Of a stretch of 64,000 nucleotides of DNA, positions 5,455 through 32,413 are shown in pieces. Every line of letters starts with the position of its first letter. The stretch's first letter is position 1. Position numbers and translations under genes: made by a program. The notes under the pieces are model-generated. The model was not told the origin of the DNA. It worked only from the letters and a program-made list of their open reading frames with translations, and did not search any database. The DNA comes from Rhodocyclales bacterium (GTDB lineage Bacteria; Pseudomonadota; Gammaproteobacteria; Burkholderiales; Rhodocyclaceae). Where the stretch lies: positions 62,001 to 126,000 of the forward strand of contig JACRLX010000001.1 of assembly GCA_016235165.1 (NCBI GenBank). The letters are read 5' to 3'.

Positions 5455-5470
5455 CCCGCGCCGGCGACTT

Positions 5471-14113: not shown

Positions 14114-14170
14114 CTCATCGTCCTTCCGCAGGGCAGGGCCGGGAGTCGGCGCTGATGACACGGCGATTCA

Positions 14171-14593
14171 TCAGAAGGATACCGAAAGCCGGCGCTCTAC
14201 ATACAGGTCACCGGGCGTCGTGATGTTCGGGCAGAGCGGCTCGGCGGCATTGGGCTGGTTGCAGGCGGTGGCCGTCACCGTGTATACCGTCGGTCCCGAG
14301 AATCCCCCCGGATCGGCGGTCGCCACGCAATCCACTGTCACGGTGAATCCGGCCAGGCTGCTCGCTGCCGGCGCGAACGACGTCGCACCGGCGCAGGAGC
14401 CCGCGCGCAGCTGGCGATACAGCCCCCATTCGAGGCCGGCGCGCGCCGTCTGGTAGGCGCGGACGCCTTGCAGGTCCAGCGCGGCACCCACCTGCTGGCC
14501 GGAAGACAGGCTGACGACGAATCCGCCCAGGGCCGCGAGGACGACCAGGATGAAGATCGCCGAGACCATGGCGAAGCCGCGCCGCCGCTTCAT
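14171..14593 (-). CDS. mshP: MSHA minor pilin-type protein MshP
   Basis: The product has 140 residues. A 6-residue basic leader MKRRRG is followed by a hydrophobic pilin-like helix FAMVSAIFILVVLAALGGF. It has Ser rather than Glu at position +5, a trait of GspK/PilX-like pilins that initiate a pseudopilus. The rest is a small Cys-containing domain. The start overlaps the end of mshO by 4 bases, and mshQ follows after 57 bases. Confidence 0.85.
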   Translation of the reverse strand: MKRRRGFAMVSAIFILVVLAALGGFVVSLSSGQQVGAALDLQGVRAYQTARAGLEWGLYRQLRAGSCAGATSFAPAASSLAGFTVTVDCVATADPGGFSGPTVYTVTATACNQPNAAEPLCPNITTPGDLYVERRLSVSF

Positions 14594-15438
14594 GGCGTGT
14601 TATCCACCCTGATCTGCTCGAACAGCGTCACCGACTCGCCGCCGATTGAATCCGTGAGCGTCAGTTGCACCGCAAGCATGGCGTTTCGCGCCAGTGCCGT
14701 GGTCGTCAGGTCGATGGTGCAGGCGGCACTGACGCCGCCGCCGCCGGCAAGCGTGACGCCGGCATCCGGGCATACCGAAGGCGTTGCCAGGCTGCACGCG
14801 GCCTGGCGGGTCAATACGCCGCCGGTGCAGGTATAGCGTATGACCTTGTCGGCGTCGGCGACGACCTGGAAGCGGGAACTGGGCGAAGGCAGCGGGGGCG
14901 TCTGCGCGCCGAAGACATTGCTCGCCAGGCGCACGGTAGTCGCCGCCGGCAGGCTTGCCACGCGCGCGATGTTGCATCCCGGCGGAGTGGCGGAACAGTC
15001 ATAGGCATTCGCAGGTGCAAAGCCGGGACCGAGGTTGTAGACCACGATGAAGTCGCCGCTGGCACCCGTGATCAGCGCCGGCATCGGCCCCAGGACGTCG
15101 AAGTCGGTGCTGGCGGCCGAGGTGAAACTCAGCACGTTGCCACCGGTCGAGCCGTCGCCCGAATCGCGGTACCTTCCCGCGGCCTTGGTCATGACGAACT
15201 CGAAGCCGTTGGTTACCGTGCGCAGGCTGTTGGGCAGCGCGAGGCGGACGTCGCGGCTCATCCGGCGCAAGGCGATGTCGGCGGCGCTGACCAGCTCGGC
15301 ACGGCGCGCCGTATCGACATAGCTGCGGATGGGCCCGGCGATGAATACCGCCACGATGGCCGCGACGATGCCGGTGACGACGATGGCCACCACGGCTTCG
15401 ATCAGGGTGAATCCAGCTGACTCGTAGCGCAGGCTCAT
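14590..15438 (-). CDS. mshO: MSHA minor pilin MshO
   Basis: The product has 282 residues from ATG 15438, which overlaps the mshD stop (ATGA). It is a type IV prepilin: leader MSLRYESAG, cleavage before FTLIEAVVAIVVTGIVAAI with Glu at +5. The long globular domain with several cysteines fits MshO, a PilW/GspJ-like minor pilin. It would be matured by a prepilin peptidase that is not in this window. Confidence 0.88.
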   Translation of the reverse strand: MSLRYESAGFTLIEAVVAIVVTGIVAAIVAVFIAGPIRSYVDTARRAELVSAADIALRRMSRDVRLALPNSLRTVTNGFEFVMTKAAGRYRDSGDGSTGGNVLSFTSAASTDFDVLGPMPALITGASGDFIVVYNLGPGFAPANAYDCSATPPGCNIARVASLPAATTVRLASNVFGAQTPPLPSPSSRFQVVADADKVIRYTCTGGVLTRQAACSLATPSVCPDAGVTLAGGGGVSAACTIDLTTTALARNAMLAVQLTLTDSIGGESVTLFEQIRVDNTP

Positions 15439-16040
15439 GGCAGGCTGTTGGGCGCGAAGCGGGTTCGGTATCCCTCGAGCACGAGGGTTTCCGCACCGGC
15501 GCTGGGGCAGGCGGCAGCCCGGCACACAGTGACCGTGATCAGCAGGGAATCCGCTACCGGCACGGTGGACAAGGCGGACGACGACACGCTGATGCTGGCA
15601 CTGTAGCCGGCAGGGAAGGCGGCGCCGGTAACACCGGTAGTGACGTTGGTCAGGCCGTTGTAGTCGCTGACGTTGTCGAAGGGATCGGTGGCACTGAGGC
15701 GGTTGTCGGTATTGCCGCTGACGGTTTCCACTCCCACGGCCTCGACTGCGTCCCAGCATTGGGCCGGATCGGTGGCGGTCGCGTCAAGCGTGGCGCTGGT
15801 CGCGGTAGCCGCGCTGCGGTCGTCGGGATCGCACCAGGTGAAGGGCAGCGATTGAACCTCGTCGAGCAATGCCTCGGCGATCGACTGCATCTGCTTTCGC
15901 GCCATGGGGTCGGCGCTCGACCTCACCGACACGCCGAAAACAGTGAGCACGCCCGCAAGCGCCACGCCGACGATCATCATGAAGACGATCAGTTCGATCA
16001 GGGTAGTGCCGAACTCCCGGCACGGTCGCCTAGAAGACAT
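15435..16040 (-). CDS. mshD: MSHA minor pilin MshD
   Basis: The product has 201 residues. Prepilin leader MSSRRPCREFG is followed by TTLIELIVFMMIVGVALAG, so Thr rather than Phe would be the mature N-terminus, with Glu at +5. Similar to MshD/PilV-type minor pilins, with cysteines in the globular part. It overlaps mshC by 11 bases and mshO by 4. Confidence 0.87.
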   Translation of the reverse strand: MSSRRPCREFGTTLIELIVFMMIVGVALAGVLTVFGVSVRSSADPMARKQMQSIAEALLDEVQSLPFTWCDPDDRSAATATSATLDATATDPAQCWDAVEAVGVETVSGNTDNRLSATDPFDNVSDYNGLTNVTTGVTGAAFPAGYSASISVSSSALSTVPVADSLLITVTVCRAAACPSAGAETLVLEGYRTRFAPNSLP

Positions 16041-16524
16041 GGCCCGTCTCGCCTGTCACCGTGATGGTCGGGTTGCCCCCGCCCGACACGGTATAGGTTC
16101 CCGCGCCCAGCGTCGCCCTCCCCAGCGGATCGAACTGTATGCTGGCCGCCGGCGTCAGGGTGACGCCGGCCGGATGGCAGATCATGTTCGTCGCGCCGCC
16201 GCACGCGGCGTCGGTGGCCGGCAGGCCGAGCGGACGTCCATAGGGGCAGACCGCACTGTGGCCGGCATTCTCCGGCTCGACGCTCTCGATGGTGAAGGTG
16301 ACGTCGCCCGCCGCATCGATCACCGCACAGGTAAAACGGCGCTGGGCAACCGCAGCCTTGCGTGCGTACTGCAGACTGGCCCTGACCTTGTCGCGGTAGC
16401 CTTCCTCGTCAAAACCGCGGAGGATGTCCAAGCGTGGCAGGGCAAAGTAGGCCATGATGCCGATGACAATCATCACTGTCACCAGCTCTATGGTCGTGAA
16501 GCCCCGGCCGCGACGCTGCGCCAT
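16030..16524 (-). CDS. mshC: MSHA minor pilin MshC
   Basis: The product has 164 residues with leader MAQRRGRG, cleavage before FTTIELVTVMIVIGIMAYF, Glu at +5, and a GspH/FimT-like globular domain containing several cysteines. MshC-type pilins initiate or tip the fibre. It is the first of the C-D-O-P minor pilins, starting 3 bases after the small membrane-protein gene ends. Confidence 0.87.
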   Translation of the reverse strand: MAQRRGRGFTTIELVTVMIVIGIMAYFALPRLDILRGFDEEGYRDKVRASLQYARKAAVAQRRFTCAVIDAAGDVTFTIESVEPENAGHSAVCPYGRPLGLPATDAACGGATNMICHPAGVTLTPAASIQFDPLGRATLGAGTYTVSGGGNPTITVTGETGHVF

Positions 16525-16949: not shown

Positions 16950-17402
16950 TTAGCTGCAGTTGGTCAATAAGGTACTGCTGCCCTGGATCGAGACCCGCGC
17001 CACCGAACTCGCCGACGCGTCCTGATATTCGAAACGGCAGTTTGGATAGCCATTGGTAAGGAAAATGCCCGCCGCTGTGACGGAGAAATCGGTGGACATG
17101 TCGAGCAGCGTCGTGGCGAAGTGCGCCACCGCAGGAAAGCCATACGAGATATTGATGTTTGCGCTGCCGATCACCGCGCTCAAGACTGTCAGCTGCGCTC
17201 CCTGCAGGCCACGCGCAGATGCCCGCCCATAAACCATGTTCGCCGAGCCTTGAACCGCTCCCGACAAGCCCTTGATCGCCGCAGCACGTGCATCGCCCGA
17301 CAGGTTCACGAACTTCGGCAACGCCGTAGCCGCGAGGATACCCAGAATGACGATGACGACGATGAGTTCGATAAGTGTAAAGCCACCTTCCCTGGTTGCC
17401 AT
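16950..17402 (-). CDS. mshA: Major MSHA-type pilin MshA
   Basis: The product has 150 residues from ATG 17402 (AGAGGT 7 bases upstream); an upstream ATG at 17429 would give an atypical leader. The short leader MATREGG precedes [24 protein letters not shown], an almost ideal type IVa pilin helix with Glu at +5. A C-terminal region with two cysteines (NCRFEYQD and the final NCS) could form the disulfide-bounded D-loop. It is probably the major pilin, because it has its own strong-looking promoter and a terminator. It may be the substrate of the modification genes encoded on either side. Confidence 0.9.
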
Positions 17403-17438
17403 TTCGCCTACCTCTTTCTTATATGACATATTTGAATT

Positions 17439-17546: not shown

Positions 17547-17855
17547 ATGCCCTTATTTTCCAGGATTGTTGCAACCGCCCAACAACTTGTTTCCGTTCTG
17601 TCCGCCCATTATTCGGCGGCACAGAATGTAATCGGGGGCCGGCGCGGCGAAGGATTGCGCCGCATCGGCGTCGAGACCTTTCTGGCGGCCGTCGCCAACC
17701 ATCGCAAGGAAGCCAGGCCCGGACTGCTGCGCCGCGTGCTTCTCGCCCGCGCCCTCCAACGCGAACTGCTCGCCGCCGGGTACGACCCGCAGTTCGTGCG
17801 CACGCTGATGCCGGCCGTACTTGCCGAACTTACGCATTCAGCCGCATCTCACTGA
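17547..17855 (+). CDS. Hypothetical protein heading the modification cassette
   Basis: The product has 102 residues from ATG 17547; a TTG at 17538 is also possible. It looks like a soluble helical protein, with an Arg-rich middle (RRGEGLRRIG) and hydrophobic-patterned helices. I do not recognise a family. It ends 13 bases before the start of the large TPR glycosyltransferase gene and is divergent from mshA, so it is probably co-transcribed with the cassette. Confidence 0.55.
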   Translation: MPLFSRIVATAQQLVSVLSAHYSAAQNVIGGRRGEGLRRIGVETFLAAVANHRKEARPGLLRRVLLARALQRELLAAGYDPQFVRTLMPAVLAELTHSAASH

Positions 17856-17868
17856 TCAGGAGCATTCT

Positions 17869-20800
17869 GTGGTGGGATGGCTAACCTTGCTACTCCGTCC
17901 CCCGCCCGCCTCCGGCAGAGAAAGCAGCGTCGCGGCGCCGGCCACGAAATCCTCGTCGACAGGTCCCGATGATCGCTCCGGGCTCCGGCGCGCCAGGGAA
18001 AGCGGCGACCTCGCAACGGCCCAGAGGCTCGTGTTGCGTCTCCTGGCCGGAGCGCCGGACGATGCCGAACTGCTTTTCGAGCTGGCCCAGATCCTGAGGG
18101 CGCAGGGCAACGACGAAGATGCTCTGGGCTGCCTGGAAAAGATCCACGCTGGCGCGACGGAGCACCTCGATGCACTGCGCCTTGGGGTCAGCCTTTCGAA
18201 GCGCTTCGGCAAGTGGCAACAGGCCGTGACCTGGATGGCCAAGCTCGCACGGCGACCCGGCGCACCGCTCGACGACTGGTTCTTCCTTGCCCAGCTGCAG
18301 CGGGAATGCCAGCAAGCCGCGAAAAGCATCGAAGCCATCGCCGAGGGCATGCAGCACTATCCCGACGACGTCCACCTGCTGGTGGAGCGCGGACTGGCGT
18401 TACGCGAGCTCAATCGCTATGCCGAGGCGGAGGCCGACATCGCGCGTGCCTACGCCGCAAATCCAGCGGACGAGGAGACAACCTACGCCTGGTCCCTGAT
18501 CCTCAGCGAAACCGGTCGTGCCCGCGCAGCCGTCGATCTGGCTGCGGCGTATGCCGAAAAGCATCCGCAGCTGCTGCGGGCGCGCGCCAGCCTCGCCGGC
18601 GCGCTGAAGGCGGACGGGCGCCTCCCCGAGGCACTGGCGGTGTATCAGGCGATGGCCGCCGATTTCGGCGAGCGGCCCGAGCCCTGGATGAACCTCGCGC
18701 ACATCTACCCCAAGCTTGGACGCTACGACGAAGCGATCACGGCAGGCCGCCGCGCCGTCGAACTGGGGCCGCAGACGGCTTATGCACACATCAACCTGGC
18801 AATGAGCCTGCTCGCCTGCGGCCAGTTCGAGGAAGCCTGGCCGCACTACCAGTGGCGCTACCAGGCACTGCTGCGCAAGGACTATCCCATTCCACCCTGC
18901 CCGTCGAACCCCCTGATCCGCTTCCCGGGCGACCTGCTGCCGCTCGACTTCACCGGCCGCCGCATCACGCTGATCGAGGACCAGGGTCTGGGAGACGAGT
19001 TGTCCTTCCTGCGCTTTGGCCCTCTGCTGCGCCGGCGGGGAGCCCACGTGACCTATGTCCCGGACCCCAAGCTGGCCTCCATGGTGGCGCGTTCCGCCGC
19101 GGCCGACATCGTCACCGAACCCGGCGCGGACGCACCGGCCAACACCGAGATCTATCTGGCGCCCGGCGACCTGCCCTTGTTGCTCGATGTTTCCGCCGCG
19201 GAGCGGATCCCGCCGCCGCTCGGCCTGACGGCAGACCCGGGGGCGACAAGACAGCTCGAACCGCGCCTTGCGCCGCTGCTGGGTTCGGGCCGTCCCTTGG
19301 TTGGGGTCACCTGGCGCGGCGGAACGCATTCCGTTCGCGGCGACAAGCTGTTCAAGACCATCTCGCCGCAAGCCCTGGCGCTGATCCTGCGCGATCTCCC
19401 GGTCGAGGTGGTGATCCTGCAGCGGGCGCCGCTGGCCGGCGAAATCGAGGAATTCGCCGCCCACCTCGGCCGGGCAGCCCACGATTTCAGTGACCTCAAT
19501 GCGGACCTGGAGGCCATGCTGGTGCTGCTGGACAATCTCGACGACTATGTGTCAGTCAGCAACACCAACATCCACCTGCGTGCCGGCCTGGCGAAGCCGG
19601 CGCGCATCCTGGTGCCCTTCCCACCCGATTACCGCTGGATGGCCCACGGTCGGGAAAGCCCCTGGTTCCCGGGCTTCCCGATCTACCGCCAGGGTTCCGG
19701 CGGCCACTGGGACGAGGCTCTGCGCACATTGCAGCACGACTTGTGGCAACGCTTCGCCGGCACTCCGCCACCGCCCGATCTGGTACCGAACGAGTGGCCA
19801 ACCGCGACACGCAACATGGCGGCCACGGCGGTCGCGTCCCGCTGCGTGCGCATCGGCACCCTGTCGGCAGGCTCGGGCAAGCCGCAAGCCCTGAGCTTCG
19901 TCACCCTCGACAGCTTCGTCACCGGCGCGGACGGCTTGCCCATCGCCACGCTGGCTTCGACGCGCTACCGCGTCATGCTGCCGGGGATGCAATTGGCGCG
20001 CCGCGGCTTCGATGTCAGGGTGTTCCCCCGTCCCGAGGCCGGCTGGAGCGGCACGGCGGCCGACGACATTCCGCCCGGACCGACGGTATTCTCGAAGAGC
20101 TTTTCCGCCGACAACGTGGAGTTGGCGGCCCGCCTCAAGCAGCGCGGCCATCCGGTCGTGCTCGACCTATGCGACAACCATTTCGGCCATCCGCAGTTCG
20201 GCCCCCAATTGCATGCCTTGTGCGGCCTGGCCGACAGGATAGTTGCCGCGACCGAAACGATGGCTGCGGCGATACGCGAGGCGACGGGCCGCGATTCGGT
20301 GATCATCGGTGATCCCGTCGAAGGTCCCCGCGGTGAGCCGGTCTTCGCCCCGCGCTTCCCTGCGATTCGGCTGCTCTGGTTCGGCCATCCGTCGAATCTC
20401 GATTCGCTGCGGGCAGCGACAGGTCAGCTCGCCACGGCCGCCGGCCGTTATCCGCTCCGGCTCACAATCCTGACCCAGATCGACGGCGCGGTCGAAAGAC
20501 TCGGTGCCGAGATCGCGGCGGCGGCTCCCGGCAGGATCGAATGCCTGGCCCGCCCCTGGACGGCAGACGCCACCTGGCGCGAACTCGAAGCCTGCGATCT
20601 GGTGGTCATTCCTTCATTGGCCGATGACCGAAAATCGGTGAAGAGCCCGAACCGCTTGCTCGAAACGATCTGGGCCGGCCGCCTGGCGATAGCCCATCCG
20701 GTGCCCTCCTATCGGAGGTTCGCCGAGTATTGCAGGATAGGAGACGACCTCGCCGAGGGAATCGCGTGGGCGCTGGAGAATCAGGCCGATGTCCTGCAAC

Positions 20801-21450
20801 GCCTGCGCGCAGGGCAGGATGCCATCGCATTCGATCATTCATCGTGGAAGATCGCCGCGGACTGGGAGCGCATCCTGCGGGCCGAAACGGCGCTGCCGGC
20901 AGAATCGGTTCGGCTCCATCTGGGCTGCAGCGACAGGATTCTGCCCGGATACATCAACGTCGATGAACTTGCGCAGGTCCGCGGCACGAGGCCCGACGTG
21001 ACGGGCAGCCTGCGCAGACTGGCCATGTTCCCGCCGCAGTTTGCCGACGAAATCCTTTGCGTCCATGCCCTTGGCCGCTTTGCACGCTGGGAGGTGGAGG
21101 ATGTGCTGCGCGAATGGCTGCGCATCCTCAAGCCGGGCGCCCGGCTCATTGTCGAATGCGGGAATCTGGATACGGCCTGCGGCAGACTCGCCGATGCCCC
21201 CGAGGCCGAGTCCTGGCCCGATCAGCGGGGCCGGCAGACCATGTGGGTCCTCTATGGCGATCCGTCCTGGAAGGACCCGGCGATGATCCATCGCTGGGGA
21301 TATTCCCCGCGCAGCCTGGAGGAGTTGCTGCGCTCCGTCGGCCTGGTCAATGTGCGCCAGGAGCCGGCCCAGTTCAAGCTCAAGGAGCCCCGGGACATGC
21401 GCCTGGTTGGCGAGAAGGCGTCCGAACCCGTTTCCGAGTCGACCAGATGA
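17869..21450 (+). CDS. TPR - glycosyltransferase - glycosyltransferase - methyltransferase fusion
   Basis: The protein is 1193 residues from GTG 17869 (AGGAG 6 bases upstream). The domains I see are: TPR repeats (about 40-330); a GT41/GT9-like glycosyltransferase domain typical of bacterial TPR proteins (about 345-625; ITLIEDQGLGDELSF, LVGVTWRGG, VSNTNIHLRAG); a GT-B-like domain (about 680-1005; SPNRLLETIWAGR nucleotide-sugar-binding type segment); and a class I methyltransferase (about 1012-1185). The last domain has HLGCSDR where the downstream paralogue has NLGCGDK, and lacks its VIEHF motif, so it may be inactive. It probably transfers and edits sugars on pilin or a surface glycan. The stop overlaps the next gene (ATGA). 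Confidence 0.8.
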   Translation: MVGWLTLLLRPPPASGRESSVAAPATKSSSTGPDDRSGLRRARESGDLATAQRLVLRLLAGAPDDAELLFELAQILRAQGNDEDALGCLEKIHAGATEHLDALRLGVSLSKRFGKWQQAVTWMAKLARRPGAPLDDWFFLAQLQRECQQAAKSIEAIAEGMQHYPDDVHLLVERGLALRELNRYAEAEADIARAYAANPADEETTYAWSLILSETGRARAAVDLAAAYAEKHPQLLRARASLAGALKADGRLPEALAVYQAMAADFGERPEPWMNLAHIYPKLGRYDEAITAGRRAVELGPQTAYAHINLAMSLLACGQFEEAWPHYQWRYQALLRKDYPIPPCPSNPLIRFPGDLLPLDFTGRRITLIEDQGLGDELSFLRFGPLLRRRGAHVTYVPDPKLASMVARSAAADIVTEPGADAPANTEIYLAPGDLPLLLDVSAAERIPPPLGLTADPGATRQLEPRLAPLLGSGRPLVGVTWRGGTHSVRGDKLFKTISPQALALILRDLPVEVVILQRAPLAGEIEEFAAHLGRAAHDFSDLNADLEAMLVLLDNLDDYVSVSNTNIHLRAGLAKPARILVPFPPDYRWMAHGRESPWFPGFPIYRQGSGGHWDEALRTLQHDLWQRFAGTPPPPDLVPNEWPTATRNMAATAVASRCVRIGTLSAGSGKPQALSFVTLDSFVTGADGLPIATLASTRYRVMLPGMQLARRGFDVRVFPRPEAGWSGTAADDIPPGPTVFSKSFSADNVELAARLKQRGHPVVLDLCDNHFGHPQFGPQLHALCGLADRIVAATETMAAAIREATGRDSVIIGDPVEGPRGEPVFAPRFPAIRLLWFGHPSNLDSLRAATGQLATAAGRYPLRLTILTQIDGAVERLGAEIAAAAPGRIECLARPWTADATWRELEACDLVVIPSLADDRKSVKSPNRLLETIWAGRLAIAHPVPSYRRFAEYCRIGDDLAEGIAWALENQADVLQRLRAGQDAIAFDHSSWKIAADWERILRAETALPAESVRLHLGCSDRILPGYINVDELAQVRGTRPDVTGSLRRLAMFPPQFADEILCVHALGRFARWEVEDVLREWLRILKPGARLIVECGNLDTACGRLADAPEAESWPDQRGRQTMWVLYGDPSWKDPAMIHRWGYSPRSLEELLRSVGLVNVRQEPAQFKLKEPRDMRLVGEKASEPVSESTR

Positions 21451-22121
21451 TCAACATCTTCATCGGTTTCGACCCGCGCGAGGCCATCGCCTTCCACGTC
21501 TGCGCCAACAGCATTATCCGCCGTTCGTCGCTGCCGGTGGCGATCACACCCTTGGCGCTGAACAACCTTGCCGGCTACACGGAGCGCCACACCGACGGCT
21601 CGAACCAGTTCATCTACAGCCGCTTCCTTGTTGCCTACCTGATGAACTATGCCGGATGGGCGCTGTTCATCGACGGCGACATGCTGTTGCGCGCCGACAT
21701 CGCCGAGCTTTGGGCCCTGCGCGATCCGGACAAGGCGGTATTGTGCGTGCACCATGACTACCAGACCCGGACGACGGACAAGTACCTCGGCGCCCGCAAC
21801 CAGGATTATCCGCGGAAGAACTGGTCCAGCGTGGTGCTCTGGAACTGCGGCCACCCGGCAAACCGGATCCTGACCCCCGAGTACATCGAGGCGGCCAGCG
21901 GTTCCCGGCTCCATCGGTTTGCCTGGCTTGACGATGGGCAGATCGGGGAACTGCCGAAGGTCTGGAACTGGCTGCCGGACGAGTTCGGTCCGAACGAGGA
22001 TGCCAGGCTGCTGCACTGGACGCTGGGCACGCCGTGTTTCCATGAATATGCCACCGCGCCCATGGCGGATGAGTGGCACCGCGAGCGCATGCTGGCCAAC
22101 TACAGCCTGCAGCGCTCCTGA
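21447..22121 (+). CDS. GT8-like glycosyltransferase
   Basis: The product has 224 residues from an ATG that overlaps the stop of the preceding gene, implying coupled translation. The fold features are those of a GT-A enzyme: N-terminal INIFIGFDPREAIAFHVCANSI, then the metal-binding DXD motif as DGD at 76-78 (ALFIDGDM), and later SSVVLWNCGHPAN. There is no signal peptide or membrane span, so it is cytoplasmic. It should transfer a sugar from a nucleotide donor; the acceptor is unknown, and from context I infer a glycan or pilin precursor. Confidence 0.8.
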   Translation: MINIFIGFDPREAIAFHVCANSIIRRSSLPVAITPLALNNLAGYTERHTDGSNQFIYSRFLVAYLMNYAGWALFIDGDMLLRADIAELWALRDPDKAVLCVHHDYQTRTTDKYLGARNQDYPRKNWSSVVLWNCGHPANRILTPEYIEAASGSRLHRFAWLDDGQIGELPKVWNWLPDEFGPNEDARLLHWTLGTPCFHEYATAPMADEWHRERMLANYSLQRS

Positions 22122-22137
22122 ACCGGGCTGGGCGGCC

Positions 22138-23538
22138 GTGCACTTCGCCGACAGACTGCGCAGCGCCATCGCGAACGCCTGCCTGAGCCTGGTCGACAGC
22201 ATAGTCGGGCGCCGGGCGGCGGTGGAGACGGCGCCGCGCGACGCGGTAGCGACGCACTCGGCGGCGGAAGCCCTGAAGCTGAACCTCGGCTGCGGCGACA
22301 AGCGGCTTCCGGGTTATCTCAACATCGATGTGGCTCCATCGCGTCGCGGCGTGCATCCCGACGTGGTCTGCGATCTGAGGCGACTGGAGCGCTTCGCCGA
22401 CGACAGCGCGGTCGAAGTGCTGGCGGTCCATGTGATCGAGCATTTCTGGCGCTGGGAGGTCGAGGACGTCCTTCGCGAGTGGTTACGTGTCCTCAAGCCG
22501 GGCGGAGAGATGGTAATCGAATGCCCCAACCTCGTCTCCGCCTGCGAAACCGTGCTGGCCGACCCTGCCGTCGCTGGCGCCGGGGACGCGCGTGGGCAAA
22601 GATCGATGTGGGTGTTCTATGGCGACCCATCGTGGCGCGACCCGCTGATGTGCCACCGTTGGGCCTACACCCCGGCCAGCCTGGCCAACCTGATGGTCGG
22701 CATCGGCCTGGCCGAGGTGCGCCAGGAACCCGCAAAGTTCAAGCTCAGGGAACCGCGCGATATGCGCCTTGTGGGGCGCAAGCCCGACCCGCGTGCCGCC
22801 GTCGCCCCCCCGCCGGCCATCGCGCCGCCACGCCCCGTTCCACCGGCCGCAGCGGCGCCCCGCGCATCCGGCGGACCGGCGCCCGCCGCACCCAGCGCCG
22901 CGGCCGAGCAGTACCACCGCTGGTACTACGACAGCCAGGTCTGGAAGCAGGTGAGCTACCATGGCATCCGCACGCTGAAGCTGGTCTCCGACTTGTGGAA
23001 TTACCAGGAAATCGTCTTCGAGCATGGCATAGACTACGTGGTCGAGACCGGAACCCGGCACGGCGGCTCGGCCCTCTTCTTCGCCGACACCCTGGCCGCG
23101 CGCAACGAACAGGGCTTCGTCGTCAGCATCGACCTGAGCGGCGACGAGAACCAGGTCCGTAGCCACCCCCGGATCCGCTTCCTCGTCGCCGACAGCGCCG
23201 CGCCGGCGACTGTGCGGTCGGTCACCGCGCTGCTGCCCGAACCCGCGCAGCGCGGACCGTGCTTCTGGATTCTGGATTCCGACCATTCCCGCGACCACGT
23301 CCTGCGCGAGCTCGAGGCCTGGGTTCCGGTCATGAAGCCAGGCGACTACCTGGTGGTCGAGGACTCGAACGTCAATGGCCATCCGGTCAGACCCGATTTC
23401 GGTCCGGGCCCCTGGGAGGCCATCCGCGATTTCAATGCCCGTCATCCCGGCCTGCTGGCCGCCGACAGGAAGCGCGCGGAAAAATTCGGCCTCAGCTTCG
23501 CCACCGACGGCTACTTCATCCGGGCCGGTACCCCGTGA
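22138..23538 (+). CDS. Methyltransferase - CmcI-like fusion protein
   Basis: The product has 466 residues from GTG 22138, 16 bases after the preceding stop; the ribosome binding site is weak. The N-terminal class I SAM methyltransferase (about 46-215; LNLGCGDKRLPGYLNID, VHVIEHFW) is clearly paralogous to the last domain of the 1193-residue protein. A Pro/Ala linker (about 218-255) leads to a CmcI/cephalosporin-hydroxylase-like domain (about 258-460; ETGTRHGGSALFFAD, ILDSDHS), a family that includes sugar O-methyltransferases. It probably methylates hydroxyls of a glycan. The stop overlaps the radical SAM gene. Confidence 0.8.
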   Translation: MHFADRLRSAIANACLSLVDSIVGRRAAVETAPRDAVATHSAAEALKLNLGCGDKRLPGYLNIDVAPSRRGVHPDVVCDLRRLERFADDSAVEVLAVHVIEHFWRWEVEDVLREWLRVLKPGGEMVIECPNLVSACETVLADPAVAGAGDARGQRSMWVFYGDPSWRDPLMCHRWAYTPASLANLMVGIGLAEVRQEPAKFKLREPRDMRLVGRKPDPRAAVAPPPAIAPPRPVPPAAAAPRASGGPAPAAPSAAAEQYHRWYYDSQVWKQVSYHGIRTLKLVSDLWNYQEIVFEHGIDYVVETGTRHGGSALFFADTLAARNEQGFVVSIDLSGDENQVRSHPRIRFLVADSAAPATVRSVTALLPEPAQRGPCFWILDSDHSRDHVLRELEAWVPVMKPGDYLVVEDSNVNGHPVRPDFGPGPWEAIRDFNARHPGLLAADRKRAEKFGLSFATDGYFIRAGTP

Positions 23539-24374
23539 TTTCGCGCGCCATCGACAAGCTCGGGTTCGACGTGGTGCATGGTTGCCAGCTGCGCTGCATC
23601 GGCTGCCCGAATTCGACCCTGAAACCCAAGATCCGCCAGATCGCGGTGGCCGACTTCGGCCGTGCCCTGCGCAACATCGATGTCGCCCACGTCGGCCTGT
23701 TTCGCCTTTTCAACTTCGGCGAACCCCTGCTGCATGACGACTTGCCCGATATCCTTGCCGAGATCCCCCGGCAGGCGTGGCGCGCCGGCACGATCGAAAT
23801 ATCGACCAATGCCCAGTACCACGACTTCCCTTTGTTCGCGGCGGCGCTCAGGACGGGAGTCCTCACCCGCCTGGTCGTGAGCTGCGACGGCGATGGCACG
23901 CCGGCGGACTATGAGCGACTGCGCCCGCCGGGGAAATGGGAGAAGCTGATCGAGTTCATGGCGCGCATGCGTGAACTGCGCGACAGGCATGCCCCCAGGC
24001 TGGCACTGATGACGCGCACGATCTGCACTGATCCGGCGGCCCAGGAACGCTGGAGACGGACCCTTGCGCCGCTGGGCTGGATTCCCGAATTCCGCGACTG
24101 GCAATACTTGCCCGAGTCCCAGAGCAACATGCTCGGGCGCGAGCTGCGCGTGCCCGCCGCCGTCTGCTCCTTCGTCAAGCCGGGGAACAGACTCTATGTC
24201 GATTGGGACGGAACCGTGGTGCCCTGCTGCGTCCATCCGGCGGCCGGGAACTTCGGCAACCTTCTCAGCCATCGCTACAGCGAGCTGCTGGCCGGCACGC
24301 GACGCATCGAATTCATGGGTCGGCTGCACACGGCACGTGCGGCCATGCCGATCTGCAACCGCTGCGAGTATTGA
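23535..24374 (+). CDS. Radical SAM/SPASM protein in pilus cassette
   Basis: The product has 279 residues from a GTG overlapping the upstream stop. The radical SAM cluster cysteines are C17, C21 and C24 (GCQLRCIGC). A C-terminal SPASM-like set is C211, C231, C232, C274 and C277 (VVPCCVHP; CNRCEY), suggesting one or two auxiliary Fe-S clusters. Such enzymes modify peptides or small metabolites by radical chemistry. No precursor peptide is obvious nearby, so the substrate may be a sugar, pilin or the product tethered to the neighbouring carrier domain. It converges on the adenylation fusion gene with 9 bases between stops. Confidence 0.85.
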   Translation: MISRAIDKLGFDVVHGCQLRCIGCPNSTLKPKIRQIAVADFGRALRNIDVAHVGLFRLFNFGEPLLHDDLPDILAEIPRQAWRAGTIEISTNAQYHDFPLFAAALRTGVLTRLVVSCDGDGTPADYERLRPPGKWEKLIEFMARMRELRDRHAPRLALMTRTICTDPAAQERWRRTLAPLGWIPEFRDWQYLPESQSNMLGRELRVPAAVCSFVKPGNRLYVDWDGTVVPCCVHPAAGNFGNLLSHRYSELLAGTRRIEFMGRLHTARAAMPICNRCEY

Positions 24375-24383
24375 TCCCGCGCG

Positions 24384-27371
24384 TCAGGCTTCGCTCAGCC
24401 AGGACTCGACCACCTCGGCGATCAGGGCCTGTCCGCGGTCGGTGAGGTGGGTGCGGTCGGCGAACAGCCAGACTGGCTCACGAAATCGGGGCTCAGCATT
24501 GAGGTCGATGAAATCGAAGCCAGCCGTGCTGCAGGCGGAACCCAGATCCGCCAGGAATCGCTCCTTCCATGGACCAAGCCGTTCCGGTCCGTGGGCGCAC
24601 TGAACCGCCTGCGGCGATCCGTCGAACAGGGCGACCAGCTCGCGTTCCTCGGCTGAGAGCTCCTTGTCGATCCAGGCCAGGACCGGCTGCATGAGGAATA
24701 GGCGGCGTGCACTGCGCCGTGCCAGCCAGGCGCCGGCGACTTCGAGGTCGCGCCGAAGCTGGCGAACCAGATCCGGATAGGCGGCGGCGATGTCCTGACC
24801 ACGCGCTGGCGACCCCGCCCCCACGAGCTTGCGAAACATCCATTCGCCGACATAGGGTGCCGGATTCGTGGTGTCGCCACCCCCGAGCAGGGCGGCAACC
24901 AGCGTGTTCACCCCCGACATCCACACGACATGGGAGAAGCTGTCGGGCGCATGCAGCTCCGCCGCCAATCGCTCCTGCGTCAGCGAGGAGGCGCGCAGTG
25001 CCAGACTGAACCAGCAAACCGCCGGCGGCAGCGAGCGCTGGTTGAGCTGGTTCGCCAGGCTATGCCGGTCATGACTGGTGCCGATGCCGAATGCAACGCT
25101 GTTGCCGAGCACAAGGCCACGCGGCCCCGGCATCGACAGGAACTCGTCGATGCCAAACGCCCTGCCATCCTGCCAGCCGAGGCGGAATCCGCAGCGATCC
25201 GTGTTGAGGCTGGGCGAACGGAATCCGGCCGCACCGCGCCGCATCAGGTAGGACACCCACTCGTAGGGTTGTCGATCGACGTCAGCAAACTGCGGCAGCA
25301 GCTGATTGCGCCGCGATGCGATGCTGGCGTTGCCTGCTGGCGCAGGAGTCGGCGCCGGCAACACGGCGATCGCCGCCGCCAGGCCGGCTATGCTGTCGTA
25401 GCGCTCAGGGTGCACCAGCGCATCCTGTGGCAAGGCGCGCCCCAGGGCCTTTTCCATGGCGCTGAACAGCGACACCAGGCCAAGTGAATCGATCACGCCG
25501 CCCACCAGAAGCGGCGCATCGTCGGCAAGGTCGGCAAGCACGGTCGCCGCACTGTCGGATGGCATGGCCTGACGCAGGCAGTCGCGCACGGTGGCGCGCA
25601 GGTCTTCGCCGTCGGCCGCGGCCGGGAACGCCGGACGGGGCCACGCCTGTCGATGCTCCCGCTTGAGGTAGCGCTCGCGGTTGATCCGCCGGGACAGCTT
25701 GCCTGAGGTGGATTTTCGCAACCACATGTGGGGAACGATGGCTACGTCCGCCGGCATCACGTCGGTGCGGCTGGCGACGGTGCGATGGATCGCGCGCAGC
25801 AGGGCATCGGCGTCGACGCCGGTCCTGTGGGATTCGGCTATCACGACCAGGGCCTCGGTACCAAGATCCTCGTCCGGCACGCCTACCACCACGCAGCGCC
25901 CCGGGAGCACGCCGTCCACTTCGAGCACCACCTCCTCGATGTCCTGCGGATGCACGTTCTTGCCGGCAACGATGATCGTGTCCTCGCTGCGCCCGAGCAC
26001 GAATACTTCATTGCGCCAGACGAAGCCGCGGTCGCCCGTGGCGAAGCCGTGGCGCTGCAGGCGTTGTGCCGTCAGGTCCGGGTTATGGAGGTAGCCCTGG
26101 AAAAGGCCCGGACTGGCGACCGCCAGCTCGCCCACCCTGCCCTCCGGCAGGGCGTTCCCGGCGTCGTCGAGCACGGCGACCAGGGTTTGCGGCAACGGAC
26201 GACCGCTCGACACAAGACGCAGCCCGCCGGCGCCCTGCTGCAACCTTATCTCCGCCGCATTCACCAGATCGAGCGGAGCGACATCGATTACCGCCGGGGG
26301 ACGATCGAAGCCCCCCGAGGTGACCGCGAAGACGTTCTCGGCCATTGCATAGCTGGCGCAGAGTGCCTCTCTCCTGAGGCCATAAGCGGCAAACCGTTGC
26401 AGAAAGCGTTCGTGGGATGTCGCGCGGACAGGCTCCGAGCAGTTCACCACGCCGCGCAAGCTGTGCAGCGAAACACCGCGGATCGCATCATCCGCGACGC
26501 GGTCGGCAAGGAAACGATAGGCAAAGTTCGGCAGCCAGCACAGGCTCGCGCAATGCTCGGAGATGGCGTGCAGGAACTGCTCGGGCTTGCGCACCCAGTC
26601 GAAGGGCGAAAGGGCGACGATCGGCACACCGTGCAGCAGGGGCATCAACCAGCAGCTCATCAGGCCCATGTCGTGATAAAGCGGCAGCCAGCTGGCAATC
26701 CTGTCGTCGCGGTTGAGGCCTATCACCCGGGCGTAGGTATCGATCTGCCAAAACAGGGCCCGATGACTGATCTCGATGCCCTTCTTGAGCCCGGTCGTTC
26801 CCGAGGAGAACTGGACCAGGGCGGTCGCTTCCGGATCGGCCTGCGGCGACTCCCGGTCGGCTTCGCCGGCCGGCAGGATCTCTTCTCCGGCGACGATGCG
26901 CATCACTCCGGCGGCCAATTCGCCCCCCTTGATCTGGCCGGCAAGCTCCGGATAGAGCACTACGGCAGCGGCTCCGGCGGCGGAGACCAGCCTGTTCAGC
27001 GTGGCAAAGAACTCAGCGCGCGAGTGCTTGGGCGACGGATGAGCGAAGTAGCTCGGGACCAGGTCGCCAAGCATGGCGCCTAGATAGGCCGCGTAAAGAT
27101 CGCGGCTGTGGGGAAGTATCACGACGACTCGCTGTCCAGGCCGCAATCCCCGTGAACGGTACAACGCCCCCCAACGTCCGGCGAGTTCCACCAGGCCGTC
27201 ATAGGTGAGCACATCTTCGCGACGGTCCGGATACCTCAGATGGAGGAAGGCAAGCCCCCGCAAGGATTCGGCATTACGGCGGATTCTTTGCACCAGGTGG
27301 GTGGCCGGTTCCGCGGTCGCGCCAGGCGCCGCGGACAAGGGCTGCAACAAGCGGTCGAGCAGGGCTTTCAA
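24384..27371 (-). CDS. Adenylation (FAAL-like) - ACP - SGNH fusion enzyme
   Basis: The protein has 995 residues. First is an acyl-adenylating domain (about 1-575) with the A3 loop FSSGTTGLKKG (188-198), the YAMAEN motif, TGD (445-447) and the SGK lysine K558. Next is an acyl carrier domain (about 590-670) with phosphopantetheine serine S629 in VIDSLGL. Last is an SGNH-type hydrolase/transferase domain (about 735-995) with GNS (S758), SGVN (819-822) and DRTH (D972, H975). It could load an acyl or amino acid onto its own carrier and pass it to an acceptor such as a sugar. It lies 28 bases after mshB on the same strand. Confidence 0.85.
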   Translation of the reverse strand: MKALLDRLLQPLSAAPGATAEPATHLVQRIRRNAESLRGLAFLHLRYPDRREDVLTYDGLVELAGRWGALYRSRGLRPGQRVVVILPHSRDLYAAYLGAMLGDLVPSYFAHPSPKHSRAEFFATLNRLVSAAGAAAVVLYPELAGQIKGGELAAGVMRIVAGEEILPAGEADRESPQADPEATALVQFSSGTTGLKKGIEISHRALFWQIDTYARVIGLNRDDRIASWLPLYHDMGLMSCWLMPLLHGVPIVALSPFDWVRKPEQFLHAISEHCASLCWLPNFAYRFLADRVADDAIRGVSLHSLRGVVNCSEPVRATSHERFLQRFAAYGLRREALCASYAMAENVFAVTSGGFDRPPAVIDVAPLDLVNAAEIRLQQGAGGLRLVSSGRPLPQTLVAVLDDAGNALPEGRVGELAVASPGLFQGYLHNPDLTAQRLQRHGFATGDRGFVWRNEVFVLGRSEDTIIVAGKNVHPQDIEEVVLEVDGVLPGRCVVVGVPDEDLGTEALVVIAESHRTGVDADALLRAIHRTVASRTDVMPADVAIVPHMWLRKSTSGKLSRRINRERYLKREHRQAWPRPAFPAAADGEDLRATVRDCLRQAMPSDSAATVLADLADDAPLLVGGVIDSLGLVSLFSAMEKALGRALPQDALVHPERYDSIAGLAAAIAVLPAPTPAPAGNASIASRRNQLLPQFADVDRQPYEWVSYLMRRGAAGFRSPSLNTDRCGFRLGWQDGRAFGIDEFLSMPGPRGLVLGNSVAFGIGTSHDRHSLANQLNQRSLPPAVCWFSLALRASSLTQERLAAELHAPDSFSHVVWMSGVNTLVAALLGGGDTTNPAPYVGEWMFRKLVGAGSPARGQDIAAAYPDLVRQLRRDLEVAGAWLARRSARRLFLMQPVLAWIDKELSAEERELVALFDGSPQAVQCAHGPERLGPWKERFLADLGSACSTAGFDFIDLNAEPRFREPVWLFADRTHLTDRGQALIAEVVESWLSEA

Positions 27372-27399
27372 TCCGGGCCCCTTCCTGCGCGCCTGGCGC

Positions 27400-27936
27400 T
27401 CAGCACCCCGCAGTGACCACGCTGATCACCGGCGCGACAATGGTTCCGCCCTCCACGGTTGCCGGCTGGTAGCTCACCCGGCAGTTCGGGGGATCGCCCC
27501 CGATCACGTCGTAGCAGCGGGCGCCGGTGGGACATCCGGCACCGCCAACGGTCAGGCGGTCGGCGGCAAGGTTCAAGGCGGCCGCGGCGTCCACCCCGGC
27601 CGCCGTCGCAGCGGGATGGCGATTCACCATCTCTATCATGCTGCCGTCCATTTCCACCCGGGGCGGCGTCGCGCGACAGGACGTGCCGGGCAATCCGGCT
27701 TCACCCTTGGCCAGATCGAGTTCGCAACGCGACCTCGCCAGAGAGGTGGCGGAACGGATCGAACCGTGGATCGCATGCGCCTTGGCGACACGCGCATCGC
27801 GCTGGGCATCGATCAGCCTGGGAAGCGCCACCGCAGCGAGGATGCCGATGACAGCGATCACCACCACCAGTTCGATCAAGGTAAAACCCTGGTATGTCGA
27901 TCTCCGCCGTTGCTCGTCTGGTTTTCTGGCAGTCAA
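27400..27936 (-). CDS. mshB: MshB-type pilin
   Basis: The product is a 178-residue prepilin. The leader MTARKPDEQRRRSTYQG (17 residues) is longer than that of mshA; the helix FTLIELVVVIAVIGILAAVALPRL has Glu at +5. Several cysteines lie in the C-terminal half. Position after mshG and mshF, as in Vibrio MSHA loci, supports MshB, a minor or alternative pilin related to MshA. It shares only the helix closely with the mshA product in this window. Confidence 0.83.
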   Translation of the reverse strand: MTARKPDEQRRRSTYQGFTLIELVVVIAVIGILAAVALPRLIDAQRDARVAKAHAIHGSIRSATSLARSRCELDLAKGEAGLPGTSCRATPPRVEMDGSMIEMVNRHPAATAAGVDAAAALNLAADRLTVGGAGCPTGARCYDVIGGDPPNCRVSYQPATVEGGTIVAPVISVVTAGC

Positions 27937-27987
27937 GGCCGTTCTCGCAGTTTCCGCATGTCATTGGCACCAACCGATGGCCGCGAT

Positions 27988-28449
27988 TCAGTTTACCTCT
28001 TCCAGCGCCACACCCACCGTCCTGCCGGCCGAGTCGATACGCGGTACCAAACGCCAGCGCAATCGTATCGCATCATCGAAGGCCCTGGGCTGGCGCGGGT
28101 GGTAACGCAGCTCACGGCTCCCCTTGTCGTAAGTCCACTCGCCCATCGCCGGCGTCGAACCGTGCCCGTCCGCTGCTGGCGGATGGCGCGCAAGATAATT
28201 GAGGGGGTTCGACGCCAGGATGTCGGCGATCCGGTGCTCCTCGCCCTGGATGATCCTCTCGCCGACTGCCAGTTGCAGTCCGACGCGGATATTGCGCAAG
28301 ACCATGTCCATTGCCGTGCGCTCGGCCTCGGCTTCCATGGCCTCCAGCCTGAGCAGGAGGATGGCCGCCAGCAGGCCGAAGACGCTGGCCACGATCGCAA
28401 ACTGGAGCTTCGATGTGCCGCCCATTCCGGCCGGCCGACGAAGCTTCAT
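27988..28449 (-). CDS. mshF: MSHA biogenesis protein MshF-like
   Basis: The product has 153 residues from ATG 28449, which overlaps the radical SAM stop (ATGA). One N-terminal membrane span (about 15-35, LQFAIVASVFGLLAAILLL), a helical stretch, and a small domain with WTYDKGSRELRYHPRQP, which resembles pilin-like accessory proteins. The order mshE-mshG-(rSAM)-this gene-mshB matches the mshEGFB order of Vibrio, so MshF is the best name. Its exact role in MSHA assembly is not well known. Confidence 0.7.
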   Translation of the reverse strand: MKLRRPAGMGGTSKLQFAIVASVFGLLAAILLLRLEAMEAEAERTAMDMVLRNIRVGLQLAVGERIIQGEEHRIADILASNPLNYLARHPPAADGHGSTPAMGEWTYDKGSRELRYHPRQPRAFDDAIRLRWRLVPRIDSAGRTVGVALEEVN

Positions 28450-29396
28450 GCGTAGGCGATGCATGCCTCGCACACGGTACCGCGCACGTCCTTGCGCAAA
28501 TGCGCGTCGCGCAGCGCGACGAAGGGCGCCGAGTTCCATGCCTCCATGAAAGACTGTTTGTTCAGGTCGCCCATGGTCCAGTTGGCATTGGCATCGAAGC
28601 AACAGGCCGACAGCGAACCGTCCGCCGTCACGTGACCTTCGGTGAAGGCCGACCAGCAGGGAAGCGGTTCGCGCAGTGCTCCCAGTCGCCCCTGGTTGCC
28701 AGCGGTAGGGCGATATCCCAACTCCTCCTCCCGCTGAGTGGCGAAGGCCCCCATCGAATACAGCGGCAACCAGTAGTGCTGGTCGACATAGGGCCGGATA
28801 GCCTCGGCGAGGTAACGCTCCATTCGCTCCTGCTGCGCGCCGTCATAGCGTATCGACGACGCGTACAGGCCGGTTGCGTAGCCGCCGCGGCGACGTATCT
28901 CGTACGCTTCCTTGATGTTTCCGGCAGCGTTGCGAAACAACTTCTTCGACACCCCCATGATCGCCTCGAACTGATCTTCGTCGGCGGCATTGCATGACCA
29001 CTTGAGCGAATCCAGCCCGGCCTTCATGCATTCCTCAACGGCTTCCGGAAAGGCCATCGAGGCATTCGAGGTCAAAAACACATAGGGGAAGCCGAGTTCC
29101 CGCTTCGCATGACGAATGCAGTCGACCAGCAGACGCGGATTCATGAAGGATTCGCCAAGATAGAAGACGCCGATTTCTTCGACGCCGGCCTCCCGCATCT
29201 CGCCGGTTATGCGCTTGTAAAGTTCGAAATCGATGTCCCATTTCGGCTGCACCTCCCGATTGCGCAAGGCACAGAAGCCGCAGCGGTAGTTGCAGCGTGG
29301 GGAAATCTCGATCTTGACGCTGCGTGGCGCCGGCGGGCTTGGCCTGCAGCGGTCTGGCGGGATGCGGGTAATCGAATCGATGCGGTCGGTAATCAA
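28446..29396 (-). CDS. Radical SAM/SPASM protein inside the msh operon
   Basis: The product has 316 residues from a TTG at 29396; no ATG or GTG start is available before the cluster motif, and the ribosome binding site is weak. Radical SAM cysteines are C35, C39 and C42 (CNYRCGFC). SPASM-type cysteines are C247, C265, C266, C309 and C312. The DGSLSACCFDAN segment is typical of SPASM proteins that act on peptides or sugars. It is co-directional with mshG and coupled to mshF. It is not part of standard MSHA loci. I infer a role in modifying the pilin or its glycan; the substrate is unknown. Confidence 0.85.
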   Translation of the reverse strand: MITDRIDSITRIPPDRCRPSPPAPRSVKIEISPRCNYRCGFCALRNREVQPKWDIDFELYKRITGEMREAGVEEIGVFYLGESFMNPRLLVDCIRHAKRELGFPYVFLTSNASMAFPEAVEECMKAGLDSLKWSCNAADEDQFEAIMGVSKKLFRNAAGNIKEAYEIRRRGGYATGLYASSIRYDGAQQERMERYLAEAIRPYVDQHYWLPLYSMGAFATQREEELGYRPTAGNQGRLGALREPLPCWSAFTEGHVTADGSLSACCFDANANWTMGDLNKQSFMEAWNSAPFVALRDAHLRKDVRGTVCEACIAYA

Positions 29397-29468: not shown

Positions 29469-30701
29469 TTAACGTCTCATGCTTACCTTGCCCAAGTCCC
29501 ACAGGGGGAGGAAGATCCCGAGAGCAAGTATCAGGACCATTATGCCCAGCACGACGATCAGGATCGGTTCGATCTGCTGCGCCAGGGTCTTGAGTTCGTA
29601 CTCGACTTCGCCTTGGTACATGTCGGCGATCTCCTTCATCATGTCGTCGAGTGCGCCAGACTCCTCGCCTACCGCGATCATCTGCAACACTACAGGAGTG
29701 AACACGCCGGCGGCAATCGAAGTACGCAGGACGCTCTCTCCGCGCTCGACACCTTCGCGCATCTTCTCCACCTTGCGCGCGATGTAGGCGTTACTGACCG
29801 TCTCGGCCACATTGGTCAGCGCCTGGATGATGGGAACGCCGCTACGGGATGCCATGGCAAAGCTCGCCGCAAAGCGCGCCAGTGTCGCCTTGCGCACGAT
29901 CTTGCCGGCGATCGGAATCCGCAACCTGGCCCTGTCCCAGGCGTAGCGACCGCCGGGAGTCGCGATCCACGCCCGAAATCCCAGCGCCGCGACGGCCATC
30001 GCCACCAGGATCGCAGGCCACCACGCCAACGTGAAATCTGAAAAACCGATCAGCATTCGCGTCATCAGGGGCAGTTCCGCGCCGAACCCCTTGAACACCT
30101 TGGCGAATGCCGGTATGACAAAGACATTGACGACCGCAATGGCGATCGCCATCGCGGCAATCACGAAGGACGGGTAGCGCAAGGCTGATTTCACCTGATC
30201 CTGCATGAAGCGCTCGAAGGCAAGGTGATCAAACAGCCGGATGAAGACCTCTTCCAGGCGCCCTGTCATTTCACCGACACGCACCATCGAGATATAGAAG
30301 GGAGAAAATACCTTCGGATGGCGCGCCAGCGAATGAGACAATTCGCGGCCGGAATCAAGGCTTTCCCGCACATCCTGGAGCACCTCGCGCATCGCCGGAT
30401 TGGTGCTGGACTCCTGCAACCCGGCCAGCGCACGCATGATCGGCACACCGGCCCGCAACAGGGTATGCAATTGGCGGGAGAACAGCAACACATCGAGATG
30501 CTCGACAGACGGTCGGAACAGATTGATCGAGAGCGCGGTGCCAACGTTGGCCCCGCCCGATCGCTCGGCAGGTTTGATCTCCAGCGGAGTCAGGCCTCGC
30601 TCGAATAATTGGTCCGCTACGGCGCCGGCTGTCTCTCCGACCAGAATACCCTGAACCAGTTGCCCGGCGGCATCGCGCCCACGAAAGGAAAAGCTGGCCA
30701 C
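29469..30701 (-). CDS. mshG: Inner-membrane platform protein MshG
   Basis: The product has 410 residues from GTG 30701, 5 bases after the mshE stop; upstream in-frame sequence runs antisense-like through mshE and is not used. It belongs to the GspF/PilC family, with two repeated cytoplasmic domains (about 70-190 and 270-390) and three membrane regions (near 170-190, 215-240 and 380-402). The protein couples the MshE ATPase to pilin extraction from the inner membrane. Confidence 0.93.
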   Translation of the reverse strand: MASFSFRGRDAAGQLVQGILVGETAGAVADQLFERGLTPLEIKPAERSGGANVGTALSINLFRPSVEHLDVLLFSRQLHTLLRAGVPIMRALAGLQESSTNPAMREVLQDVRESLDSGRELSHSLARHPKVFSPFYISMVRVGEMTGRLEEVFIRLFDHLAFERFMQDQVKSALRYPSFVIAAMAIAIAVVNVFVIPAFAKVFKGFGAELPLMTRMLIGFSDFTLAWWPAILVAMAVAALGFRAWIATPGGRYAWDRARLRIPIAGKIVRKATLARFAASFAMASRSGVPIIQALTNVAETVSNAYIARKVEKMREGVERGESVLRTSIAAGVFTPVVLQMIAVGEESGALDDMMKEIADMYQGEVEYELKTLAQQIEPILIVVLGIMVLILALGIFLPLWDLGKVSMRR

Positions 30702-30706
30702 GATCC

Positions 30707-32413
<1,707 letters not shown>

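Follow-up and report, generated by a model that had tools for sequence, protein, structure and literature searches.

The MSHA-type pilus locus of a Rhodocyclales bacterium (GenBank assembly GCA_016235165.1) carries, set among its minus-strand msh genes, a seven-gene cassette that we read as a pathway for filament-protein glycosylation and sugar tailoring, probably serving the MSHA pilus in this lineage. The DNA analysed, referred to here as the window, is a stretch of 64,000 nucleotides (contig JACRLX010000001.1, positions 62,001 to 126,000 of the forward strand) and belongs to contig 12 of a 4.47 Mb genome. On our best reading the pilin MshA would be glycosylated without a ligase, by a TPR-guided enzyme, and the sugar tailored by methyl, acyl and radical chemistry, a scheme we judge somewhat better than an even bet. 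The sequence itself shows which genes are present, how far they are conserved, that they are linked to genes for pilins and flagellins, and the motifs named below; the idea of a pathway is supported by independent co-location of the parts.

Composition of the cassette

Open reading frames (ORFs) and domain scans against Pfam and NCBIfam agree with a first-pass annotation of the window, made from the letters alone, which had described the six enzymes in the following list at these positions and with this domain make-up. It had left undescribed a seventh gene, P0, at the very start of the span (17547).

17547..17855, plus strand: P0, a small protein of 102 residues from a family without a name (P0 profile match; 83% identical in the sibling locus L035)
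17821..21450, plus strand: P1, a TPR - glycosyltransferase - GT4-like - methyltransferase fusion, start uncertain (TTG at 17821 or GTG at 17869)
21447..22121, plus strand: P2, a GT8-like glycosyltransferase (near-cut-off GT8 match; DGD motif)
22138..23538, plus strand: P3, a methyltransferase - CmcI/rhamnosyl O-methyltransferase fusion (Methyltransf_11 and RMNT_CmcI)
23535..24374, plus strand: P4 (rSAM-A), a radical SAM/SPASM protein (Radical_SAM and SPASM)
24384..27371, minus strand: P5, a fatty-acyl-AMP ligase (FAAL) - acyl carrier - SGNH (CgnD-like) protein (domain and structure-database matches)
28446..29396, minus strand: rSAM-B, a second radical SAM/SPASM protein, between mshG and mshF (Radical_SAM and SPASM)

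The five predicted enzymes P1 to P5 sit between mshB and mshA, where the first-pass annotation had placed the cassette as a whole; rSAM-B does not, lying instead between mshG and mshF. The start/stop overlaps it had reported are present, at 4 bases each for P1/P2 and P3/P4. The frames of P0 and P1 also overlap, at 17821-17855, if P1 begins at the TTG codon, and P4 and P5 are convergent, 9 bases apart.

P1 carries TPR repeats in stretches between residues 56 and 340 and a C-terminal methyltransferase at residues 1050-1179. Its two glycosyltransferase (GT) regions gave no Pfam match at E ≤ 0.01 but occur on their own in relatives, where a TPR-GT and a GT4-methyltransferase (GT4-MT) are two enzymes; in P1 they are fused. 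Among the best 60 of 485 PDB matches of the TPR-GT alignment, the best stretch falls in the TPR part. P2 scores 22.8 bits against GT8, with a Pfam cut-off of 24.3, and has the DGD motif; the RMNT_CmcI match of P3 is strong (E 6e-50). As a side observation, the P1 methyltransferase (residues about 1030-1110) reads HALGR, and HAIGR in the sibling, where P3 has HVIEH and the consensus of alignment A2 is HVVEH. Because HALGR replaces the HVxEH-type motif, the P1 methyltransferase may be inactive, and perhaps acts as a non-catalytic partner of P3.

Radical SAM and SGNH proteins

Both rSAM-A and rSAM-B carry the CxxxCxxC motif and SPASM/C-terminal cysteines; in rSAM-A the motif and five C-terminal cysteines are invariant in 4 sequences. 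The only PDB sequence match of rSAM-A is another radical SAM protein, BtrN (2-deoxy-scyllo-inosamine dehydrogenase), which we take to be an aminocyclitol enzyme, although the match is weak (E 4e-5) and covers residues 7-74 only. For rSAM-B 18 PDB sequences were returned at E ≤ 0.01, comprising radical SAM proteins without a name, viperins, BtrN, MoaA, PqqE, NifB and one more. Its identity to nine aligned non-sibling relatives is 77-81% in six and 55-63% in three, and its relatives are more identical to it than is the case for most of the transferases. Such identity across genomes with different filaments fits a small common substrate for rSAM-B, for example a nucleotide sugar.

At genome level the presence of rSAM-B is linked to that of GT8. 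Among 150 genomes of the order rSAM-B was found in 8 (E ≤ 1e-40) and GT8 in 16 (E ≤ 1e-20), the latter including all 8 of the rSAM-B genomes (hypergeometric p 2e-9, or 2e-8 with the own genome left out); counted by genus with the own one left out the figure is 5 of 5 (p 1e-5), all of these p-values ignoring relatedness. Several side observations concern the relatives of rSAM-B. Some lie near nitrate reductase- or oxidase-like genes, read by eye, and the neighbours of close relatives (L009:9662-12127 and the L013 and L014 stretches given below) give the impression of an enzyme produced at low oxygen. One genome (G055, L010:9579-11449) carries two adjacent rSAM-B paralogues, 39% and 79% identical to rSAM-B.

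The adenylation domain of P5 (AMP-binding) is closest to fatty-acyl-AMP ligases and has a carrier attached, with a DSL motif that reads DSLG in the window and was not found as DSLG in the sibling. The SGNH domain matches its Pfam model at E 0.006 and its sole PDB relative, CgnD (8a2n), far more clearly (E 1e-25). The similarity to CgnD runs in two stretches over nearly the whole length, including the serine and the Asp/His motifs (GNS, SGVN and DRTH are kept); the active-site correspondence was matched by motif rather than by residue number. Outside the window this SGNH part was seen in three fetched loci (L035, L049 and L089), each with filament genes. In contrast to CgnD, the P5 domain is fused to a FAAL and a carrier and lies in a filament locus. 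Because of this fusion to an acyl-loading module, we infer an acyltransferase or thioesterase for the acyl group of a sugar.

SPASM enzymes are often peptide maturases, and it could be argued that the substrate of the two radical SAM enzymes and of the CgnD-like domain is the pilin peptide, in a RiPP-like manner, rather than a sugar. CgnD itself, from the crocagin pathway, uses a Ser-Asp-His triad to cleave a leader peptide slowly, freeing the core (PMC10070186), and as the only PDB relative it lends this idea some substance. We nonetheless regard a peptide substrate as very unlikely, given the acyl-loading module fused to the SGNH domain, the match of rSAM-A to BtrN alone and the identity of rSAM-B across different filaments, as would suit a shared small substrate.

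Comparison with other msh loci

All seven cassette genes are kept in a sibling locus, L035, from a metagenome-assembled genome (uncultured beta proteobacterium LaPlata-7m bin-306), where they are 75-93% identical; neither their order nor that of the msh genes from mshE to MshQ differs there. Because genes and order are both kept, the arrangement is not a chance one. Parts of the cassette also occur in an independent msh locus, L089 (below).

The cassette is otherwise rare in msh loci, as the first-pass annotation had claimed. At a threshold of E ≤ 1e-190, 45 of 148 genomes from the order have MshE, and 40 of the 44 msh loci other than our own were examined, of which 8 are short from contig ends, one (L113) is without a pilin after mshG and one (L111) has only two. 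None of these 40 loci carries the cassette; a single distant methyltransferase match was seen, in L131. Four of them do have a protein-glycosylation gene of another kind next to their pilin genes: a PglL-type ligase (Wzy_C_2/Wzy_C/PglL_A) inside the msh operon (L139:14565-16388, minus strand), a Wzy_C protein with TPR (L130:4418-6418, plus strand), a TPR-GT41 with an FkbM methyltransferase and a P0 relative (L115:5151-9201, plus strand), and a TPR-GT41 with a methyltransferase (L131:12461-15475, minus strand). The pilin end of the msh operon is therefore a repeatedly used slot in which different glycosylation systems have settled, and this is the strongest hint that the pilin is the acceptor.

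Relatives of the parts beside other filaments

A GT4-methyltransferase profile scan of the named genomes gave 65 loci. For counting we used 72 cassette loci (L009-L110 and L194 with a GT8, GT4 or TPR-GT match at E ≤ 1e-8, the duplicates L055, L058 and L063 dropped), which were chosen for their cassette relatives and so do not sample the genomes at random; L023/L024 and L025/L026 each adjoin on the same contig, and some genomes contribute several loci.

Four loci are instructive. L089 is an independent MSHA-type locus (MshG 57%, MshE 61%) with TPR-GT, TPR-GT41, GT4, methyltransferase and CmcI, and with a FAAL-SGNH gene truncated at the contig end. L049 is a flagellar locus (FlgL, FlaG, FliD and FliS read by eye) in which two flagellins are followed by GT4-MT, a TylF-type methyltransferase, rSAM-A (59%), a separate SGNH protein (40%), CmcI and TPR-GT41. 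L036 combines a flagellin with TPR-GT, rSAM-B (81%), GT8 (76%) and GT4-MT. In L052 (Azoarcus sp. L1K30) rSAM-B (78%), a TPR protein with a GT match, a Pfam Pilin and P0 are consecutive, with GT4-MT and GT8 nearby. As the parts recur near type IV pilins and flagellins at these loci, the cassette resembles a modular toolkit for filament proteins, and the filament it would serve changes from locus to locus. The GT8 places of the order point the same way, with a pilin within the stretch in 6 of 16 (one, in L110, cut at the contig end) vs 2 of 39 random 20-kb windows. The control comprised 40 windows with one overlapping window dropped, used a pilin pattern slightly wider than that for the GT8 places, and includes among its two a 459-aa frame that is probably not a pilin; one further window has a flagellin.

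A small family linked to pilins

The P0 family follows pilin genes. A profile seeded with two relatives read by eye (L026 and L052, both pilin loci) recovered L115 and a further seven strong members; each of the seven belongs to a cassette locus that also has a type IV pilin (cut in L110). The nine-member profile, run at E ≤ 1 against 18,694 ORFs, found beyond its members only L115 (3e-6), the window P0 (0.0037) and that of L035 (0.089). P0 relatives thus occur in 10 of the 13 cassette loci with a pilin, a count that includes both seeds, in 0 of 5 with a flagellin and in 0 of 54 with neither (0 of 59 without a pilin). At an E cut of 0.05 the first count would be 9 of 13; L035 was kept for its 83% identity to the window P0, whose own membership rests on a weak score, its position directly before the TPR-GT and the alignment.

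No Pfam or NCBIfam match above chance was found for P0 and three relatives. The Azoarcus relative is predicted to be a helical bundle (pLDDT 88, pTM 0.79), and the structural neighbours of this model were uninformative. We propose that the family is a helper that would hold the prepilin for the TPR-GT; a general role in pilus assembly is a possible alternative.

The flagellar relatives raise the question of whether the cassette decorates flagellin in trans, its position in the msh locus being without functional meaning. Close relatives of the parts are found in flagellin loci (L036, L049 and L048), and the genome itself has two Flagellin_N proteins, one of them read as FlgL. Both are on contig 29, the window being on contig 12. 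However, the flagellar stretches of the genome that were examined (20 and 11 kb) are without cassette relatives, and no P0 was seen outside pilin-bearing loci and the window. A flagellin acceptor is highly improbable on this evidence.

Evidence against a pilus role

Several observations weigh against a pathway for the MSHA pilus. One counts against it by the refuting condition of the first-pass annotation itself, homologous cassettes lying mostly away from pilus genes: within the stretch examined, which is short in many cases, a pilin is present in 13 of the 72 cassette loci, a flagellin in 5 and neither in 54, so that most single parts are not next to pilus genes. In one genome (G022) the neighbourhood of the parts, read by eye, includes an ABC-transporter glycan locus. 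When searched for irrespective of the cassette, rSAM-B lies apart from it in 8 of 8 stretches (L009-L015 and L194), in some cases near a Crp-type regulator (L013:2024-4519) or an anaerobic ribonucleotide reductase (L014:9496-12659). The window P0 is a weak profile match only (E 0.0037). Lastly, the reading presupposes cytoplasmic glycosylation of a prepilin that needs later insertion into the membrane.

The first two of these observations would suit a cassette that makes a sugar of a surface polysaccharide or glycolipid, has nothing to do with the pilus and landed in the msh operon by chance. Such an origin appears unlikely to us, as no flippase, polymerase or initiating transferase was found among the ten span proteins scanned, the P0 family tracks pilin genes, and protein-glycosylation genes stand in this region of four other msh loci. 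The original proposal, an unusual sugar or acyl-sugar fixed to MshA or a pilus-linked glycan, gains from these four loci, from the absence of the cassette in the 40 msh loci, from the rSAM-B/GT8 link and from L089; MshA as acceptor and an acyl-sugar as product are the parts of it that we infer.

Comparison with known glycosylation systems

The closest parallel to P1 is FlmG of Caulobacter crescentus, an enzyme that works in the cytoplasm without a ligase, binding flagellin through its TPR domain and glycosylating it through its GT-B domain (PMC7591256). Compared on domain layout rather than sequence, P1 shares the N-terminal TPR repeats, followed by a putative GT region, the lack of an oligosaccharyltransferase and a filament protein as presumed acceptor. 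It differs in lying beside pilin genes, in its fusion to a GT4-like domain and a methyltransferase, and in its radical SAM, acyl and P0 partners. In the NGT system, the acceptor protein is exported after its modification. That system also provides a precedent for a cytoplasmic transferase (PMC5303269).

As an island of genes making a short filament-protein glycan with a modified end sugar, the cassette resembles the flagellin glycosylation island of Pseudomonas syringae, except that here the filament is a pilus, not a flagellum. The modified viosamine of P. syringae carries methyl and acyl groups. To our knowledge neither radical SAM enzymes nor a FAAL-carrier-SGNH protein has been described in that island. 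Its glycan is short and ends in this viosamine (PMC3927599).

Type IV pilins are glycosylated by PglL/PilO-type ligases, and a PglL-type protein stands in the msh operon of L139; in Vibrio cholerae pglL lies upstream of the msh operon, and glycosylation of MSHA is suggested only (PMC6901666). The cassette differs in having no such ligase: no Wzy_C-type protein was found among the ten span proteins scanned, and the two of the genome are on contigs 2 and 21, one with surroundings read as a polysaccharide-type locus. A limited search of the literature, drawn on in excerpt, found no description of radical SAM chemistry in filament glycan synthesis, the nearest case being Brachyspira plasmid genes in which radical SAM proteins stand beside a glycosyltransferase (PMC4267127). 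What is known here is the filament glycosylation island; what is new is its embedding in an MSHA locus, the two radical SAM enzymes, the FAAL-carrier-CgnD-like fusion and the small pilin-linked family without a Pfam or NCBIfam model.

The surrounding MSHA locus

The identity of the locus follows from the joint presence of an MSHA-type secretin (MshL), MshE with MshEN, MshG, prepilins and an MshQ-like protein. MshL has as its best match TIGR02519, 'pilus (MSHA type) MshL', at 233.7 bits, just below the NCBIfam cut-off of 250.2. In the same Pfam/NCBIfam scans MshEN was found on MshE, T2SSF on MshG, DUF6701 on the MshQ-like protein and N_methyl on the mshA-, mshB- and mshO-like proteins. The other msh names are our assumption from synteny and general knowledge of such loci.

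4618..7554, minus strand: msh assembly genes K, L and M (L the MSHA-type secretin; K and M named from synteny)
10043..16524, minus strand: mshC, D, O, P and MshQ-like genes (domain matches; names from synteny)
16950..17429, minus strand: mshA-like pilin, the presumed acceptor (N_methyl; synteny)
27400..27936, minus strand: mshB-like pilin (N_methyl)
27988..28602, minus strand: mshF-like protein, true start uncertain (synteny; without a family match)
29469..30740, minus strand: mshG, true start uncertain (T2SSF)
30707..32413, minus strand: mshE (T2SSE and MshEN)

The minus-strand order is mshE, mshG, rSAM-B, mshF, mshB and P5, then come the plus-strand genes P0-P4, and then mshA, C, D, O, P, the MshQ-like gene, K, L and M. 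As a side observation, over 4618-32413 the group E-G-F-B-A-C-D-O-P-Q precedes the K-L-M group on the same strand, an order permuted relative to that of Vibrio. A third radical SAM gene in the window (1207-2184) is biotin-synthase-like with a BATS domain and bears no relation to the cassette.

Proposed mechanism and significance

The order of steps we suggest follows from family functions. The TPR part of P1 would capture the MshA prepilin in the cytoplasm, with P0 assisting, and the first GT domain of P1 would begin an O-linked glycan, which its GT4-like domain and P2 would lengthen and P3 would O-methylate. A radical step on a sugar, whether oxidation, deoxygenation or epimerisation, would fall to rSAM-A and rSAM-B. 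The FAAL of P5 would charge the carrier with an acyl group that the SGNH domain could transfer to the sugar, and the modified pilin would then be inserted and assembled through the msh machine.

A broader proposal, which we hold tentatively and would call possible rather than probable, is that betaproteobacterial type IV pilins have a second, oligosaccharyltransferase-free route to glycosylation, with TPR-guided cytoplasmic transferases, a small helical protein of its own (the P0 family) to hand over the prepilin and radical SAM enzymes building an unusual sugar, of which the MSHA-embedded window would be the most elaborate form seen. Pilin glycosylation is understood chiefly through periplasmic ligases. 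If the proposal is true, the rule that pilins are served by a ligase and flagellins by a soluble enzyme breaks down, the P0 family becomes a candidate for holding a prepilin for a cytoplasmic enzyme, and radical SAM chemistry is placed in filament glycan synthesis. The locus offers a concrete test of soluble, TPR-guided pilin glycosylation.

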